Origin: Lachnospiraceae bacterium
GTDB lineage: Bacteria; Bacillota; Clostridia; Lachnospirales; Lachnospiraceae
Length of the DNA: 46,957 bases
NCBI GenBank assembly: GCA_017387565.1
Contig: JAFOEY010000008.1
Location: forward strand, 1 to 46,957
Direction: 5' to 3'
Position numbers and translations under genes: made by a program. Below, piece after piece: positions 1 to 46,957 of this stretch (position 1 is the stretch's first letter; every line of letters begins with the position of its first letter). The notes beneath the pieces are model-generated. The model saw nothing but the letters and a program-made list of their open reading frames with translations, ran no database searches and was not told the origin of the DNA.

Positions 1-139
1 GCTACGCACTTTGTGCTCTCGCAATCCGTAAACAATCGAAATCCGCCCTAATCGGGCTACTTTCTCATGTTTTGCGGGTCCCAAAGTCATACTTTTTCAT
101 GCGAGCATGAAAAGTATGACCTTTTGACCCTGGTATCAT
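1..139 (-). repeat. Dispersed ~155 bp palindromic repeat, copy 1 (cut by window start)
   Basis: On the minus strand this starts with the terminal repeat ATGATACCA (139-131) and runs through the long hairpin (arms around 121-86), the GCCC..GGGC mini-hairpin and the GGATTGC..GCAATCC hairpin. It is cut a few bases before the far terminal repeat. It matches the complete copy at 15278-15432 almost base for base. It begins 5 nt after the stop codon of the HAD gene. No ORF is inside it. Confidence 0.9.
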
Positions 140-15277: not shown

Positions 15278-15432
15278 ATGATACCAGGGTCAAAAGGTCA
15301 TACTTTTCATGCTCGCATGAAAAAGTATGACTTTGGGAGCCGCAAAACATGAGAAAGTAGCCCGATTAGGGCGGATTTCGATTGTTTACGGATTGCGAGA
15401 GCACAAAGTGCGTAGCAATCCGTTGGTATCAT
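15278..15432 (+). repeat. Dispersed palindromic repeat, complete copy with terminal inverted repeats
   Basis: Ends are ATGATACCA (15278-15286) and TGGTATCAT (15424-15432), exact inverted repeats. Inside are a long hairpin (15297-15311 with 15316-15331, loop CTCG), a short GCCC/GGGC hairpin (~15360-15372) and a hairpin GGATTGC (15390-15396) / GCAATCC (15415-15421) with a nested GCAC-AAA-GTGC. No ORF and no clear target-site duplication. It lies between the DUF5717-like and DUF5716-like genes and so interrupts their probable transcript. Confidence 0.92.
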
Positions 15433-21847: not shown

Positions 21848-22672
21848 CTATTCCAAATTTAATTTCTTTTCAATGAAATATTTGTTAAGGAAATATAATC
21901 CCACCGTACTTCCAACTATAGCAAGCGTCAGCAGAACCGAACCGATATTGACAGATGTCAAAGAAGGATCCTCATTGATTACAAACATTTGCAGGGGGAA
22001 TGACAAAAGGGAACTAATAAACCGCTTTCCTATATAAATACCAATCAAAACCAGAATCGATAAGAGCAATCTGTTTTTCTTGGACAGCTGACCGATTCCA
22101 ACTGCCATGTACATTAACAACATTTCAAAAACCGGAGATATCAGTCCGCAAATTACAGCTGAAACAATTAGCGGAATTCCCTTCATAAGCTCCTCAAGTT
22201 CAATTTCAATATCATGAAACGCCTCAGCAAAATCTGTGATTGACAATTCTGCAAAGATATTGGTAAATGAAAAAGAGATAAGCACAATACAAATTGCCAC
22301 TACAATACCGGTAATAAACTGCCACAATACCGCAATGATAAGCTTGGAATTAATCAAATCTGTTGATTTTACCGGAAGCGTATGCATCAGATATCCCTGA
22401 TCCGTAAACAGATTTTTATAATATCGTAAAAAGAAATAGTATTTCATTACCAGGACAATGGCAAAAACCGAAACGATATAAATAATGATATAAAAGGAAA
22501 AAACAACGCCCAACATTGTTGTCTGTGTATCCGTAAACGTCCTATCATCTGAATAATGCCAAAGCGATATCATTAATGCACCGATAACTGAAAGAATTAA
22601 CGCAATGCCATTGCAGACGGTACAAAGCCCCCAAGTATCTTTCCATTCATATTTCAACAATGTTTTCAGCAT
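21848..22672 (-). CDS. ABC-2-type transporter permease
   Basis: A 274-residue integral membrane protein with about six transmembrane helices in the arrangement of ABC-2 exporters: cytoplasmic start MLKTLLKYEWKDTW, helix ~20-45, ~60-85, the loop RYYKNLFTDQGYLMHTLPVK (typical of this group), then helices at ~110-135, ~165-195, ~200-220 and ~240-262. Its start overlaps the end of the ATPase gene by 7 bp, so the two are coupled and form one exporter. The substrate is unknown; the family often exports peptides or antibiotics. The terminator at 21736-21779 follows. Confidence 0.88.
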   Translation of the reverse strand: MLKTLLKYEWKDTWGLCTVCNGIALILSVIGALMISLWHYSDDRTFTDTQTTMLGVVFSFYIIIYIVSVFAIVLVMKYYFFLRYYKNLFTDQGYLMHTLPVKSTDLINSKLIIAVLWQFITGIVVAICIVLISFSFTNIFAELSITDFAEAFHDIEIELEELMKGIPLIVSAVICGLISPVFEMLLMYMAVGIGQLSKKNRLLLSILVLIGIYIGKRFISSLLSFPLQMFVINEDPSLTSVNIGSVLLTLAIVGSTVGLYFLNKYFIEKKLNLE

Positions 22673-23619
22673 GCAAACACCTCCCTGAAATACATATCAA
22701 CCGATTTATTGAATTTATCGCGAATTTTCTGAGCCGTACTCTGCACAACCAGACGACCGTTTTTGATAAATACGACATCATCCAGAATATTTTCAATATC
22801 ATAAATCAAATGTGTACAAATCAGAATTGTCGCTTCGGAATTATAATTTGATAAAATTGTTCTCAAAATATAATCCCTTGCAGCCGGATCAACTCCGGCA
22901 ATCGGTTCGTCCAGGATATAAAGCTGCGCATCCCGACTCATGACCAAAATCAGCTGTACCTTTTCCTTGGTTCCTTTTGATAACGTTTTCAATCTGGCAT
23001 CAATCGGAACTCCCAGTGCCTGTAACATATCATAGGCTCTCTCTTTACGAAAATCCTGATAAAAATCCGCAAAAAATTCAATCAGACTTTTAACATCCTT
23101 CTGAGCCTCCAGATAGGTTCTTTCCGGCAAATATGATACAACCGATTTTGTGTATGCTCCGGGCTTTTGTCCGTTAATCAGCACTTCGCCCTCCGTAGGA
23201 ACCAGTAAGCCGTTGATTATTTTAATCAGTGTTGTTTTGCCACTTCCATTTGGCCCTAACAATCCAACAATATGTCCTTTTTCTATAGTCAGGTTTAAAT
23301 GATCCAGCGCGTTTCTTCCATAGACATAACTTTTGGTCAGATTACGGCATTCCAACAGAGATGGACCATTTTCCAACTTCGGCATCGGCTCAACAATCAA
23401 TTGTGGCATAGGTCTCATCGGCGGATAGCCATACATGGGCATTCCTCCCATCGGGTGGTGTCCCATCGGCATCTGTCCCTGCATTGGTTGTCCCATTGGC
23501 ATTTGACCCTGCATTGGTTGTCCCATTGGCATTTGACCCTGCATAGGTTGTCCGTACGGGGGCTGTCCCGTTGGCATCTGTCCAACCGGCGGTTGTCCGT
23601 ATGAATTATTTGTTTCCAT
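22666..23619 (-). CDS. ABC transporter ATPase with repetitive Pro/Met/Gln/Gly N-terminus
   Basis: A 317-residue ATPase. Residues 1-75 are low complexity, with three near-identical decapeptides of the form PMQGQMPMGQ, encoded by 30 bp DNA repeats (about 23470-23560). The ABC domain follows: LLECRNLTKSYVYG, Walker A GLLGPNGSGKTT, signature LSKGTKEKVQ, Walker B LYILDEPIAGVDP and switch histidine in LICTHL. The domain is a YtrB/exporter-type ATPase. Such an N-terminal extension is unusual in a cytosolic ATPase and could mediate self-association or membrane contact (speculation). ATG 23619 follows AAGGAGA. No GntR regulator, common in such operons, is present. Confidence 0.9.
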   Translation of the reverse strand: METNNSYGQPPVGQMPTGQPPYGQPMQGQMPMGQPMQGQMPMGQPMQGQMPMGHHPMGGMPMYGYPPMRPMPQLIVEPMPKLENGPSLLECRNLTKSYVYGRNALDHLNLTIEKGHIVGLLGPNGSGKTTLIKIINGLLVPTEGEVLINGQKPGAYTKSVVSYLPERTYLEAQKDVKSLIEFFADFYQDFRKERAYDMLQALGVPIDARLKTLSKGTKEKVQLILVMSRDAQLYILDEPIAGVDPAARDYILRTILSNYNSEATILICTHLIYDIENILDDVVFIKNGRLVVQSTAQKIRDKFNKSVDMYFREVFAC

Positions 23620-23874
23620 CTTTCTTCTCCTTTTTCATTTTGTTTCTTGAATTCCCTTTTCCTTGGACGGCTTCTCGACTCGAGCGGCTCCCCGGACGTT
23701 TCCTCGAACATATTTCCATAAAACTGTGAGTTGACAAGTGAGCAGTCTCAATTAGGTTCCATCCCTCTTGCATTTGTCTTTCGTCATCACAGCGATTTAT
23801 CATCACAACGAATTGGGGAAGATATTTTATTTCCAGGTAGCGTTTTCATACTCAATCCGTTTTGGTAAAGCAAC
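23620..23874. other. Intergenic region upstream of the ABC exporter
   Basis: No convincing gene; a 66-codon frame at 23606-23806 has no ribosome site or family features. On the plus strand TTGACA occurs near 23733, but without a matching -10 box. Nothing else is recognised. Confidence 0.4.
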
Positions 23875-24091
23875 TGGCTGAGTTTATGTTTTCTGTGTTA
23901 TTATGCAGAGGTATTAGTTGTTCTTGTTATTTCGTTATATTTCAGCAATTCGCGACATGGAGGTCGCGAAAGGTGCACGACGGACAAGGATGTCCGGGTG
24001 CACCGGTGCGTTCGTATCAAAACACTGAATAGCGAAATGACCAGAACAACTTATACCTCGAAATCTAACACAAAAAACATAAACTCAGCCA
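23875..24091 (+). ncRNA. Candidate structured RNA with two CsrA-type hexaloops (or large inverted-repeat element)
   Basis: The outer stem is 18 perfect bp (23875-23892 with 24074-24091), one mismatch, then 7 bp (23894-23900 with 24066-24072). A second stem has 16 of 17 pairs (23908-23924 with 24043-24059) and continues imperfectly to about 23945/24025. Two apical hairpins remain: 23949-23956 with 23963-23970 (8 bp, loop AUGGAG), and 23972-23985 with 23992-24004 (12 bp with a small bulge, loop AAGGAU). Both loops are closed by AC/GU; ACAAGGAUGU fits the CsrA SELEX consensus. No ORF inside. No sure promoter is seen. A MITE is the alternative. Confidence 0.6.
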
Positions 24092-24117
24092 TCCCCCCAT
24101 AAAAAGACAAATGCAAG

Positions 24118-24145
24118 AAAAGCTGCCAGTACATCCGGCAGCTTT
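24118..24145. terminator. Bidirectional intrinsic terminator after ilvE
   Basis: AAAAGCTGCC pairs with GGCAGCTTTT around a 9 nt loop. On the minus strand it ends the ilvE message 20 bp beyond its stop; on the plus strand it would end any transcript of the folded RNA at 23875-24091. Confidence 0.9.
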
Positions 24146-24164
24146 TCGTCACGTATCTCGTGAA

Positions 24165-25190
24165 TTATTCAATGACTTTAATCCATCCTTCAGGAGCCTC
24201 AATACGACCCATCTGAATACCGGTTAAGGTGTCATATAATTTTTTGGTAACCGGTCCCATTTCATCCATACCACTGGGGAAACAGATTTCTTTACCATGA
24301 TCTACAATCTTACCTACCGGTGAAATTACCGCTGCTGTACCGCAAAGACCGCATTCTGCAAAATCTTTAATTTCATCAAAGTAAACTTCTCTTTCCTCTA
24401 CTTCCATGCCTAAATATTCTTTTGCAACTACCATAAGAGAGCGGCGTGTAATGGAAGGTAAAATGGTACTTGATTTGGGAGTAACAAACTTGCCGTCTTT
24501 TGTAATAAATACAAAGTTGGCACCGCCTGTTTCCTCAACCTTGGTTCTTGTTGCAGAATCCAGATACATATTTTCATCAAAGCCCTGATGATGCGCATCT
24601 GTAATTGCATATAAACTCATGGCATAGTTAAGACCGGCTTTGATATGACCGGTTCCGTGCGGTGCTGCACGGTCATAATCACAAACGCGAATGGTAATCG
24701 GTTTGGCACCACCTTTAAAGTAAGGACCTACAGGTGTTGCAAAAATACGGAACTGATATTCATCAGCAGGTTTTACACCAATAACCGGATTGGAGCCAAA
24801 CATATAGGGACGAATATATAATGTTGCACCAGAACCATACGGAGGTACATATGCTGCATTTGCTTTTACAACATCTACAACAGCCTGTACAAAACGATCT
24901 TCCGGGAATACCGGCATAACCAGTCTTTCGCAAGAGTCTTTCATACGTGCCGCATTCAGATCAGGACGGAAACATACAATTTTTCCATCCTCTGTTGTAT
25001 ATGCTTTTAATCCTTCGAAACATGTCTGTGCATACTGTAAGACACCGGCACATTCACTGATCACCACATTAGCATCTGAGGTTAATGTTCCTTCATCCCA
25101 TGCTCCGTTTTTGTAGTTGGATACGAATCGTTTGTCTGTCTGGATGTATCCGAATCCCAAATTAGACCAGTCAATGTCTTTCTTTTCCAT
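24165..25190 (-). CDS. ilvE: Branched-chain amino-acid aminotransferase
   Basis: A 341-residue fold-type-IV PLP enzyme that interconverts leucine, isoleucine and valine with their 2-oxo acids. The PLP lysine is K184 in GTGHIKAGLNYAMSL. Other marks are YAQTCFEGLKAY (~53-64), LYIRPYMFG (~124-132) and EVEEREVYFDEI. It is the longer class II (BCAT2-like) form typical of Firmicutes. ATG 25190 has AAGGAAG 8 nt upstream. It is monocistronic: a terminator follows and a damaged copy of the dispersed repeat lies about 50 bp upstream. I see no T-box leader or CodY site that I would defend. Confidence 0.96.
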   Translation of the reverse strand: MEKKDIDWSNLGFGYIQTDKRFVSNYKNGAWDEGTLTSDANVVISECAGVLQYAQTCFEGLKAYTTEDGKIVCFRPDLNAARMKDSCERLVMPVFPEDRFVQAVVDVVKANAAYVPPYGSGATLYIRPYMFGSNPVIGVKPADEYQFRIFATPVGPYFKGGAKPITIRVCDYDRAAPHGTGHIKAGLNYAMSLYAITDAHHQGFDENMYLDSATRTKVEETGGANFVFITKDGKFVTPKSSTILPSITRRSLMVVAKEYLGMEVEEREVYFDEIKDFAECGLCGTAAVISPVGKIVDHGKEICFPSGMDEMGPVTKKLYDTLTGIQMGRIEAPEGWIKVIE

Positions 25191-30289: not shown

Positions 30290-30403
30290 ATGATACTTGG
30301 GGCAAAAGGTCATACTTTTCATGCTTGCATGAAAAAGTATGACTTTGGGACCCGCAAAACATGAGAAAGCAACCCGATTAGGGCGGATTTTGAATGTTTT
30401 AGG
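30290..30403 (+). repeat. Dispersed palindromic repeat, 3'-truncated copy in the kinase leader
   Basis: Begins ATGATAC like the other copies and keeps the long hairpin (30309-30323 with 30328-30343, loop CTTG) and the CCCGATTAGGGCGGATT block. It stops at TTTTAGGA, 18 bp before the kinase ATG, without the third hairpin and right terminus. Confidence 0.88.
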
Positions 30404-30421
30404 AAATATGGGGGAAAAACT

Positions 30422-32947
30422 ATGTATAATATCTATTTTGGAGTGGCATCCATCGCTTTTGTTGTTCTTTTGCTCATATATCTTTTTGTGGAATACCCCA
30501 AAATGTCTGAAAGTAATCTTCGTTTTCGTCACATGGTACTCTCTTTGTTGATTTCAGATATCTTCGATGTTGCGACTGCCATAACCATCGATCACGGAAG
30601 CAGTGTTCCTCCCCTTTTCAACCAAATCCTGAACACCATCTTTTTTATTGTTTCAGCCTATATGGCTTTATGCTATGTACGCTATGTCGAATCTTTTGTA
30701 AAAGGCGGCAAGTTACGGAAAATCTTCAAACCCTGTCTGTTTATTTTTATTGCCTATATTATAACTATGATTGGCAATCTCTTTTTTGGATACTGCTTTT
30801 TCTTTAATGCACAGGGCGAATATATACATGGCCCACTCTATCCGGTTTCCTATGGTACACAAGTACTTCTCGGTCTGATTGGTATATTCTATATTTTTGT
30901 CCATCGACATGAATTTGAGAACAGACAAAAATATGCTCTATGGCTCTTTCTCTTATTAATTGTAATCGGTTTTGTATTTCAAATTATTATCTTCCCCAAA
31001 ACACTGTTTGCAATGTATATGGGGTCTTTAGCCACGTTTATTTTCTTATTTGTCATTGAGACTCCGGATTATCATCAGCTGGCAAAAACGTTGAAAGAAC
31101 TGGATAAGCAGAAAAAAAGAGCGGATGAGGCCAACAAGGCAAAGTCTTTGTTTTTAGCAAAAATGTCACATGAAATCCGTACGCCCATCAATACCATCAT
31201 CGGTATGAATGAGATGATTTTGCGTGAACAGAAAAGTCCCCAGATTCAATCCTATGCCATGGATATCAAAAGTTCTGCAGAAGCCCTGCTTTCTACAATC
31301 AACGATATTCTTGATTTGACAAAAGTAGAATCCGGCAAAATGGAACTTGTCAATATTGAATATGAAGTTAGCAGCCTCTTACATGATGTCATCAACACGA
31401 TTTCCTTAAAAGCGCAGGATAAAAATCTGGAAGTCAAAACCTATCTGGACCATTCCATTCCTTCGCGCTTATACGGAGATGATGTGCGTATCAGACAGAT
31501 TCTGATTAATCTTTTAAACAACGCTGTTAAATATACTGAAAAAGGCTGTATTTCCTTTTCTGTAACACATCAGAAAAATGGTGATAGTGCATTGCTGCGA
31601 TTCGATATTAAAGATACCGGTATCGGAATTCGGCAGGAAGATTTAGACAGACTGTTTGCAGAATTTGAACGTATTGATTCAGTACGCAACCACAAAATAG
31701 AGGGTACCGGGCTTGGCATGAACATTACCCAGCAACTGCTACGACTTATGGGCAGTGAATTAAAGGTAGAGAGTGTTTACGGCAGCGGCTCCCACTTTTA
31801 TTTCGAACTGCAACAACAGATTGTAGACAGTGAACCCATTGGTGATTTGGACAAACGAATTGACGAACAAAAGAAAAATTTTTCTTATAATGTATCCTTT
31901 GTCGCACCGGATGCAAACATTCTGATTGTCGATGATATCGCAACCAACCGTAAAGTCTGCCGGGCTCTTTTAAAAGACACTTTGGTTAAAATCGATGAAG
32001 CTTCCGGCGGATACGAATGCCTGGAATGTGTGAAAGAAAAGCATTATGATCTCATTTTCCTAGATGACATGATGCCTGATCTCGACGGTGTCAGTACACT
32101 AAAAGAAATGCAGAAAACAGAACATACCTGTAAAGACACACCGGTTGTTGCCCTGACTGCAAATGCCATTGTAGGCGCGGAAGAAATGTATTTAAAAGAA
32201 GGATTTAACAGTTTTCTCTCCAAACCGGTCCGCCCCGAAAAATTAGAACGTATGATTCGGGAATTGCTTCCCGAAGAGCTGATTTGTTTAAATTCCGATT
32301 TTTCATCAGATAAGTTGAAAGAAGAATCTGTTTATCTGGAAGAAATGCCCGCCATAGACGGTATTGACTGGGATTATGCAAGGCTTCATATGACAGATGA
32401 CGCCCTGCTAAGAGAAACCATTCAGGATTTCATCAAATCTTCTGCTGCCGAAATGCGTAAATTAAACGGCTATTTTGAAACCATTGAAAACCCGGACAGC
32501 CTGAACCAATATCGAATTACCGTCCATGCCATGAAAAGCAATTCTGCCATGATCGGTGCAACTTCCGTTTCAGGGATTGCCAAGCTCCTTGAGCGTTTTG
32601 CCAATGAACATTTATTTGAAAATATCCGTTATTTCCACACTGTTTTTGAAGCAGAATGGGAGAAACTAACCAATGATTTGCAAAATGCTTTCCGGATTGA
32701 AGAAAGTGAAAAAACAAATACCATTGCACCGGACCGTGATAAAATCTTAGTTAGCCTTAAGCAACTTGAAAATGCAATCATCGACTGTGACATTGATATA
32801 GCAGATGATATCATAAAGCAACTTTCTGTTTATAACTATTCAGATGAGATGCAAAAGATATTTGATGATATGATTGAAGCGGTCGAAAATATTGATGCTG
32901 ACCAGACAACAGCATGCATCAGACAAATGGAGGGGGTATTATCATGA
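30422..32947 (+). CDS. Hybrid sensor histidine kinase with receiver and Hpt domains
   Basis: An 841-residue membrane phosphorelay protein. Seven hydrophobic helices fill residues ~3-210; a coiled linker leads to HisKA with phospho-acceptor H250 (MSHEIRTPINTIIG). HATPase follows with N-box LLNNAVKYTEKG, DTGIGI (~398) and GTGLGM (~428). A receiver domain (~497-620) has acidic pair D504/D505, phospho-acceptor D548 in FLDDMMPDLDG and K601 in LSKPVRPEKL. The Hpt domain carries H702 in VHAMKSNSAMIGA. A separate output regulator is not seen, though the broken receiver protein nearby is a candidate. GGGGGA precedes ATG 30422. The signal is unknown. Confidence 0.93.
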   Translation: MYNIYFGVASIAFVVLLLIYLFVEYPKMSESNLRFRHMVLSLLISDIFDVATAITIDHGSSVPPLFNQILNTIFFIVSAYMALCYVRYVESFVKGGKLRKIFKPCLFIFIAYIITMIGNLFFGYCFFFNAQGEYIHGPLYPVSYGTQVLLGLIGIFYIFVHRHEFENRQKYALWLFLLLIVIGFVFQIIIFPKTLFAMYMGSLATFIFLFVIETPDYHQLAKTLKELDKQKKRADEANKAKSLFLAKMSHEIRTPINTIIGMNEMILREQKSPQIQSYAMDIKSSAEALLSTINDILDLTKVESGKMELVNIEYEVSSLLHDVINTISLKAQDKNLEVKTYLDHSIPSRLYGDDVRIRQILINLLNNAVKYTEKGCISFSVTHQKNGDSALLRFDIKDTGIGIRQEDLDRLFAEFERIDSVRNHKIEGTGLGMNITQQLLRLMGSELKVESVYGSGSHFYFELQQQIVDSEPIGDLDKRIDEQKKNFSYNVSFVAPDANILIVDDIATNRKVCRALLKDTLVKIDEASGGYECLECVKEKHYDLIFLDDMMPDLDGVSTLKEMQKTEHTCKDTPVVALTANAIVGAEEMYLKEGFNSFLSKPVRPEKLERMIRELLPEELICLNSDFSSDKLKEESVYLEEMPAIDGIDWDYARLHMTDDALLRETIQDFIKSSAAEMRKLNGYFETIENPDSLNQYRITVHAMKSNSAMIGATSVSGIAKLLERFANEHLFENIRYFHTVFEAEWEKLTNDLQNAFRIEESEKTNTIAPDRDKILVSLKQLENAIIDCDIDIADDIIKQLSVYNYSDEMQKIFDDMIEAVENIDADQTTACIRQMEGVLS

Positions 32948-46820: not shown

Positions 46821-46957
46821 ATGATACCAGGGTCAAAAGGTCATACTTTTCATGCTCGCATGAAAAAGTATGACTTTGGGACCCGCAAAACATGAGAAAG
46901 TAGCCCGATTAGGGCGGATTTCGAATGTTTTAGGATTGCGAGAGCACAAAGTGCGTA
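46821..46957 (+). repeat. Dispersed palindromic repeat, copy cut by window end
   Basis: Begins ATGATACCAGGGTCAAAAGG and keeps the long hairpin, here extended by GGGTC/GACCC outer pairing, the GCCC/GGGC hairpin and half of the third hairpin. The window stops at GTGCGTA. Confidence 0.93.

Follow-up and report, generated by a model that had tools for sequence, protein, structure and literature searches.

Positions 23875-24091 of the window, by which we mean the whole stretch of 46,957 nucleotides of Lachnospiraceae DNA analyzed here, are a real, conserved RNA, a copy of the TwoAYGGAY family (Rfam RF01731). The family match lies inside a longer palindromic element, whose parts and neighbors are listed here with the evidence for each in brackets.

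22666..23619, minus strand: gene on the 5' side for an ABC transporter ATPase whose N-terminus is repetitive (open reading frame list; PF00005)
about 23698-23724, no strand: scar of a deleted divergent partner, the tips of its arms (comparison with genome G008)
23725..23874, no strand: spacer between the deleted partner and the window copy (comparison with G008)
23875..24091, plus strand: whole palindromic element of 217 bp, TwoAYGGAY copy plus extended outer stem (folding, inverted-repeat scan)
23901..24066, plus strand: RF01731 TwoAYGGAY at full length, model positions 1-168 (cmscan 90.2 bits, gathering score 43)
23949..23970, plus strand: hairpin 1, loop AUGGAG at 23957-23962 with GGA at 23959-23961 (sequence and fold)
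23972..24004, plus strand: hairpin 2, inner stem 23981-23985/23992-23996, loop AAGGAU at 23986-23991 with GGA at 23988-23990 (sequence and fold)
24117..24147, no strand: perfect 11-bp hairpin by the 3' end of the element (inverted-repeat scan)
24165..25190, minus strand: gene on the 3' side (open reading frame list; encoded relatives), which we take to encode a branched-chain aminotransferase (ilvE)

Fold and hairpins of the element

The original prediction that about 217 bp fold back on themselves is borne out: The minimum-energy fold of 23875-24091 reaches -115 kcal/mol compared to a mean of -49.6 (sd 4.15) for 200 dinucleotide shuffles, none of which is equally stable (z -15.8), and a perfect outer stem of 18 bp is followed by 7 bp and then by longer helices. 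Its inverted arms lie at 23875-23900/24066-24091 (96%) and 23908-23938/24029-24059 (87%). Both hexaloops that had been claimed, AUGGAG and AAGGAU, each with a GGA and closed by AC/GU, are present in sequence and fold, each one base off AYGGAY and with 26 nt from GGA to GGA; the minimum-energy fold further contains an extra A-U pair inside loop 2 and a small third hairpin. A GGA presented in a loop is what CsrA wants, and the consensus of CsrA ligands from SELEX is RUACARGGAUGU. The exact match to this geometry stands, as ACAAGGAUGU (23984-23993) is the sole match to ACARGGATGT in the window, but the motif is not significant by itself because 0.20 matches are expected in the window and at least one is found in 18 of 100 shuffles.

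The RF01731 score of the window copy is about twice the cut-off (90.2 versus 43 bits), with both hairpins, the junction and the outer stem of the model matched, while the outer stem is around 25 bp longer on each side here. As far as the available portions of the cited publications go, a 2010 listing considered the family a probable RNA, most likely without a cis-regulatory role, with occurrence in the human gut, Gammaproteobacteria and Clostridiales (PMC2864571), so that our finding of it in Clostridia agrees with the first description; its type in Rfam is cis-regulatory. In 2014 it was matched by a model of the CsrA-site motif and proposed as a CsrA-binding or -sequestering RNA of Clostridia, CsrA sponge RNAs being said to be known only in Gammaproteobacteria and TwoAYGGAY to be a testable candidate for Clostridia (PMC4333381). 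Later work extended one of its helices (2020; PMC7657543), added two covarying pairs (Rfam 15; PMC11701678), and described the stability of its two hairpins as unequal (2025 preprint; PMC11661157). The idea of a CsrA sponge is sound but not new because it is already in print for RF01731 (PMC4333381). What differs from these descriptions, in the portions available, is the large number of copies per genome, often in divergent pairs, and paired copies are not mentioned in those portions of any of the five publications.

RF01731 is assigned to Rfam clan CL00106, which we take to be the clan of the CsrB, CsrC and RsmX/Y/Z RNAs. TwoAYGGAY shares with these gammaproteobacterial RNAs the GGA in small hairpin loops, but it belongs to a different phylum, has two sites per RNA where they have many, is found at up to dozens of loci instead of one to three, and comes without a known promoter or two-component control.

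Copies in the genome, the genus and the order

The genome of the window (G000) encodes 24 TwoAYGGAY copies over the cut-off, i.e., 23 beyond the window copy, with palindromes of near-constant length (213-238 bp) and a DNA identity to the window copy of 74-89% over mostly partial matches. Eight of the nine genomes of the genus have the family (31, 29, 24, 24, 16, 5, 3 and 3 copies over the cut-off), with G007 as the only exception. Across the order, at least 34 of 294 genomes match the family at E 0.001, and 30 of these exceed its cut-off; because this survey used stricter filters and scored at most nine candidates per genome, neither its negatives nor its copy numbers are certain beyond the genus, and all copy figures from it apply among the matches listed. 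Searches of 72,556 plasmid and 50,697 phage records detected no DNA match to the window copy at the sensitivity used.

Loop 1 reads C-A-(N)-G-G-A, with the C, A, G, G and A columns invariant in all 21 own copies that were aligned, and the best copies from 27 of the 33 other positive genomes, counted by reading, have GGA in loop 1 (24 of 27) and in loop 2 (22 of 27). When 97 copies were scanned roughly for such loops, 71 showed at least two GGA hairpins, 22 showed one, and 4, all from genome G016, showed none. In the four copies fetched from G016 and in the copy of G311, neither loop has a GGA, and both of these genomes have csrA; the presence of at least two GGA sites in hairpin loops that marks a CsrA-sequestering RNA thus holds for the window copy and not for those of G016 and G311. 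That both loops have changed jointly in G016 and G311 suggests a single ligand that recognizes the two of them and whose requirement has shifted in these genomes.

Covariation and the strand of evolution

Compensatory change among homologues, by which the original prediction proposed to check the RNA, is seen both between the copies of one genome and between orthologues. RNAalifold predicts 52 pairs for 21 of the 24 own copies (the three judged most divergent were omitted), and 40 of these pairs show at least one pair-keeping double change, including pairs of the outer arms, the region most variable between copies. Comparisons of orthologous copies drawn from G000, G004 and G008 (23 comparisons, 1466 pairs) contain 20 double Watson-Crick replacements, along with 6 double changes of other kinds. 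The one-sided changes are 32 between Watson-Crick and G.U, 5 between Watson-Crick and A.C, and 30 between Watson-Crick and other mismatches; 32 versus 5 corresponds to a binomial p of 7e-6, and 30 versus 4, with a badly aligned and a repeated row dropped, to 6e-6. In the 16 rows with gene context, G.U and A.C changes number 6 and 2 where the copy faces a gene end, and 14 and 1 where it faces a gene start. Among standing pairs in 97 of the 276 copies, namely those with fetched flanks, there are 151 G.U and 72 A.C, counts that are not independent of each other. For the later tests, copy types and gene contexts, the counts of events, the figure of 75 csrA-positive genomes and the 20 loci left after collapsing (see below) were entered by hand.

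With one-sided changes that lean towards G.U over A.C, the orthologous copies evolve as expected if the GGA strand is the RNA. A one-strand C-to-T mutation bias could give part of this lean, and template switching in palindromes could yield double changes, though not the G.U lean. The opposite-strand reading, with loops CUCCAU and AUCCUU pairing with ribosome sites, had been offered in the original prediction and is disfavored by the 32 versus 5 changes on the GGA strand.

Divergent pairs and genomic context

Neighboring copies no more than 600 nt apart are divergent in 32 of 33 cases and those 600-3000 nt apart in 7 of 10, while orientations are mixed beyond 3 kb; this count covers 135 of the 138 matches in the genus (three partial ones below the cut-off were dropped) and 141 from the order-wide matches listed. 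Orthologues collapsed by eye leave 20 divergent loci and one tandem case. Among the 27 pair rows of G000, G004 and G008 (one triple counts as two rows), both members were typed in 18, and 15 of these combine an A-type with a B-type copy. The two partners of a pair are 93-99% alike at contig C44 of G000, in both pairs of G281 and in one of the two pairs of G262; those of G016 are 78 and 82% alike. We also observed that the same two hairpins bracket 1.3 kb at one locus (L036, G000:C44:48498-50145) and 7.8 kb with several extra genes at another (L273, G008:C8:28067-36241), as if bounding a cargo slot.

The window copy has lost its partner by deletion and is the solo survivor of such a pair. In G008, the orthologous locus still has an intact partner, placed divergently across the spacer (G008:C15:20329-20494), and the two loci are 96% alike over 1530 bases that include the window copy; G004 has a shortened partner there and no counterpart of the window copy. 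A perfect 16-bp inverted repeat (23766-23781/24103-24118) flanks the element and exists in less perfect form in G004, where the element is absent. The N-terminus of the neighboring ABC transporter ATPase (window 23415-23619) is an M/G/Q/P-rich repeat whose length varies among species of the genus. On the other side, the hairpin at 24117-24147 would be terminator-like for the neighboring gene, possibly from both sides.

Promoter signals were sought in 32 of 38 spacers with 64 tests, and none emerged (mean z 0.03 compared to two-base-block shuffles); a SigD-like motif occurs 10 times with 11 expected, so that a common sigma-A or SigD promoter in the spacers was rejected for lack of enrichment over these shuffles. 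Taking open frames of at least 100 aa to stand in for genes, the nearest one is on the 3' side in 85 of 99 copies, but paired copies (70 of 77) show this almost by necessity, as they have the spacer of their partner on the other side; among solo copies it is 15 of 22. The window copy fits this pattern, with its 3' end 73 nt from the stop codon of the neighbor. The 99 copies divide into 57 that face a gene end and 42 that face a gene start.

The gap between dapB and fbp (names by reading) makes pairs with their spacers look like units of joint gain or loss. Where the element is absent, in six genomes of the genus, this gap spans 14-131 bp; it widens to 736 bp in G000 and 778 bp in G008, each carrying a pair and its spacer, and to 297 bp in G004, which has a single copy there. 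Comparison of two loci within the genus revealed no clear target duplication, and the losses observed are imprecise; a short duplication would be hidden, as the bases beside the element ends are partly conserved between copies. The idea that one member of a pair is the left end of a classical transposon and the other its right end was rejected, with partners 93-99% alike in several pairs and no transposase recognized in the regions read.

csrA, fliW and flagella

The csrA gene (PF02599) is found in 181 of the 294 genomes of the order, and it is present in 33 of 34 family-positive compared to 148 of 260 other genomes (Fisher p 8e-7, among the matches listed and with genomes that are not independent). 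FliG occurs in 187 of these 294 genomes, among them every one of the 34 that are family-positive, so that CsrA is not separable from flagella, which weakens the csrA association as proof of a CsrA role. The two are almost collinear in the order, and the data speak of "flagellated, CsrA-bearing lineages" and no more. Within the f1 genomes alone, the RNA occurs in 27 of 75 csrA-positive and 1 of 20 csrA-negative genomes (p 0.006, among the matches listed), a test that is only indicative because its negatives come from those matches.

A profile search found neither csrA nor fliW in the assembly of G000 itself, where the original prediction proposed to look for them. In the genus, seven genomes have csrA, fliW and the RNA, G007 (91% complete) lacks all three, and in G000 the RNA is present but neither gene was found. 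The gene order in G003 is flgK, flgL, fliW, csrA, flaG, fliD (FliW and CsrA by Pfam, otherwise names by reading), while on contig C32 of G000 flgK is followed by a gene with a sub-threshold PDDEXK_2 match and then by flaG and fliD. The start of contig C5 repeats the open frames from the final 6 kb of C32 with order and spacing unchanged (shared stretch of about 6 kb, G000:C32:17000-24152, L149, and G000:C5:1-6200, L150), and the PDDEXK_2-like gene sits where flgL, fliW and csrA are expected. That csrA and fliW were not found at this suspicious contig break reflects either genuine loss or a fault of the assembly, and one of the conditions that the original prediction named as refuting it, absence of csrA from the genome, applies in part. 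The window itself contains four copies of the Clostridiales-1 RNA (RF01699) in 47 kb, at 15279-15431, 30291-30448 and 46822-46957 (+) and at 1-138 (-); the assembly probably broke in this repeat because two copies, cut off, form both contig ends.

Alternative explanations

MITEs, ERIC, BOX and REPIN elements are dispersed bacterial palindromes, and TwoAYGGAY resembles them as a dispersed intergenic palindrome of near-constant length. The copies might therefore be MITE-like elements moved in trans, inserted singly or in pairs between genes, with the RNA fold as a by-product or serving only the element itself. This reading, which we consider unlikely yet worth keeping in view, is consistent with the 24 dispersed own copies of 213-238 bp, the widened dapB-fbp gap where the element is present, the partners 93-99% alike at C44, in G281 and in one pair of G262, a gene read as nuclease-transposase-like inside the C44 pair, and what reads as a fragment of such a gene in the spacer of G281:C219. 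The C44 gene has no Pfam hit, however, the other spacers in 10 regions hold unrelated genes or none, and no ends shared with a transposase-bearing element were recognized in the regions read. Double compensatory changes and a strand-specific G.U lean are not expected of an idle inverted repeat, and together with the conserved loop, the divergent pairing and positions common to related species they set TwoAYGGAY apart from such palindromes; the lack of a clear target duplication at the two loci compared, the imprecise losses and the lack of plasmid or phage matches at the sensitivity used also speak against mobility of this kind. Of the MITE alternative in the original prediction, dispersal is thus confirmed, whereas near-identity of the copies and target duplication at the two loci are not.

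Other readings accept the RNA but give it another role. A transcript of the GGA strand could have a partner other than CsrA, be it another RNA-binding protein, processing by RNase III or a flagellar regulator, with convergent GGA loops. The loops without GGA in the csrA-bearing G016 and G311, FliG in every family-positive genome, and 24 copies in a genome where csrA was not found are all in line with this improbable but coherent explanation; the retention of GGA in most other genomes (loop 1 in 24 and loop 2 in 22 of 27) argues against it, as does the match of TwoAYGGAY to the published CsrA-site motif model, as described in the available part of that study (PMC4333381). Less is to be expected of a boundary element, in which the hairpin would terminate or process transcripts at gene ends and have no role in trans. 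The excess of nearest frames on the 3' side and the 57 copies facing a gene end would fit, but a plain terminator has no need of a loop that is conserved while its stems change, and no U-run follows the element in the window; we regard this explanation as very unlikely.

A candidate CsrA-binding RNA

The proposal of a regulatory RNA with two CsrA-type hairpins gains from covarying stems, an invariant loop 1, evolution as the GGA strand and csrA in 33 of 34 positive genomes, and it loses from the csrA and fliW not found in its own genome and from the confounding with flagella. A CsrA reading of TwoAYGGAY is plausible, and it had already been published. Our best explanation, in which our confidence is evenly balanced, is that TwoAYGGAY is an outward-transcribed, CsrA-binding GGA-hairpin RNA that serves as a genome-wide sponge or as CsrA-responsive leaders and tails. 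Each copy would be transcribed outward from a spacer shared, now or formerly, with its partner, giving an RNA in which a long stem holds up two GGA hairpins that one CsrA dimer may bind together. The copies of one genome (3-31 in the genus) would then add up to a spread-out CsrA sponge or, alternatively, provide the flanking genes with CsrA-responsive leaders and tails. More tentatively, and with considerable doubt, we propose a CsrA sponge spread over dozens of chromosomal loci, made of divergent GGA-hairpin pairs that are gained and lost as units between genes, in which summed transcription would set the level of free CsrA.

Our analysis adds the paired, outward-facing layout and the strand evidence to what is known of this family. 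The data tell which strand to test and point to up to about 30 loci per genome, many of them divergent pairs, and the loops of G016 and G311 compared to all others are a natural change that can be used as a control. If the proposed sponge is real, free CsrA would not be governed by one CsrB-like gene, and the system would be, within a limited literature search, the first of its kind in Lachnospiraceae and a regulatory RNA that spreads like a mobile element.
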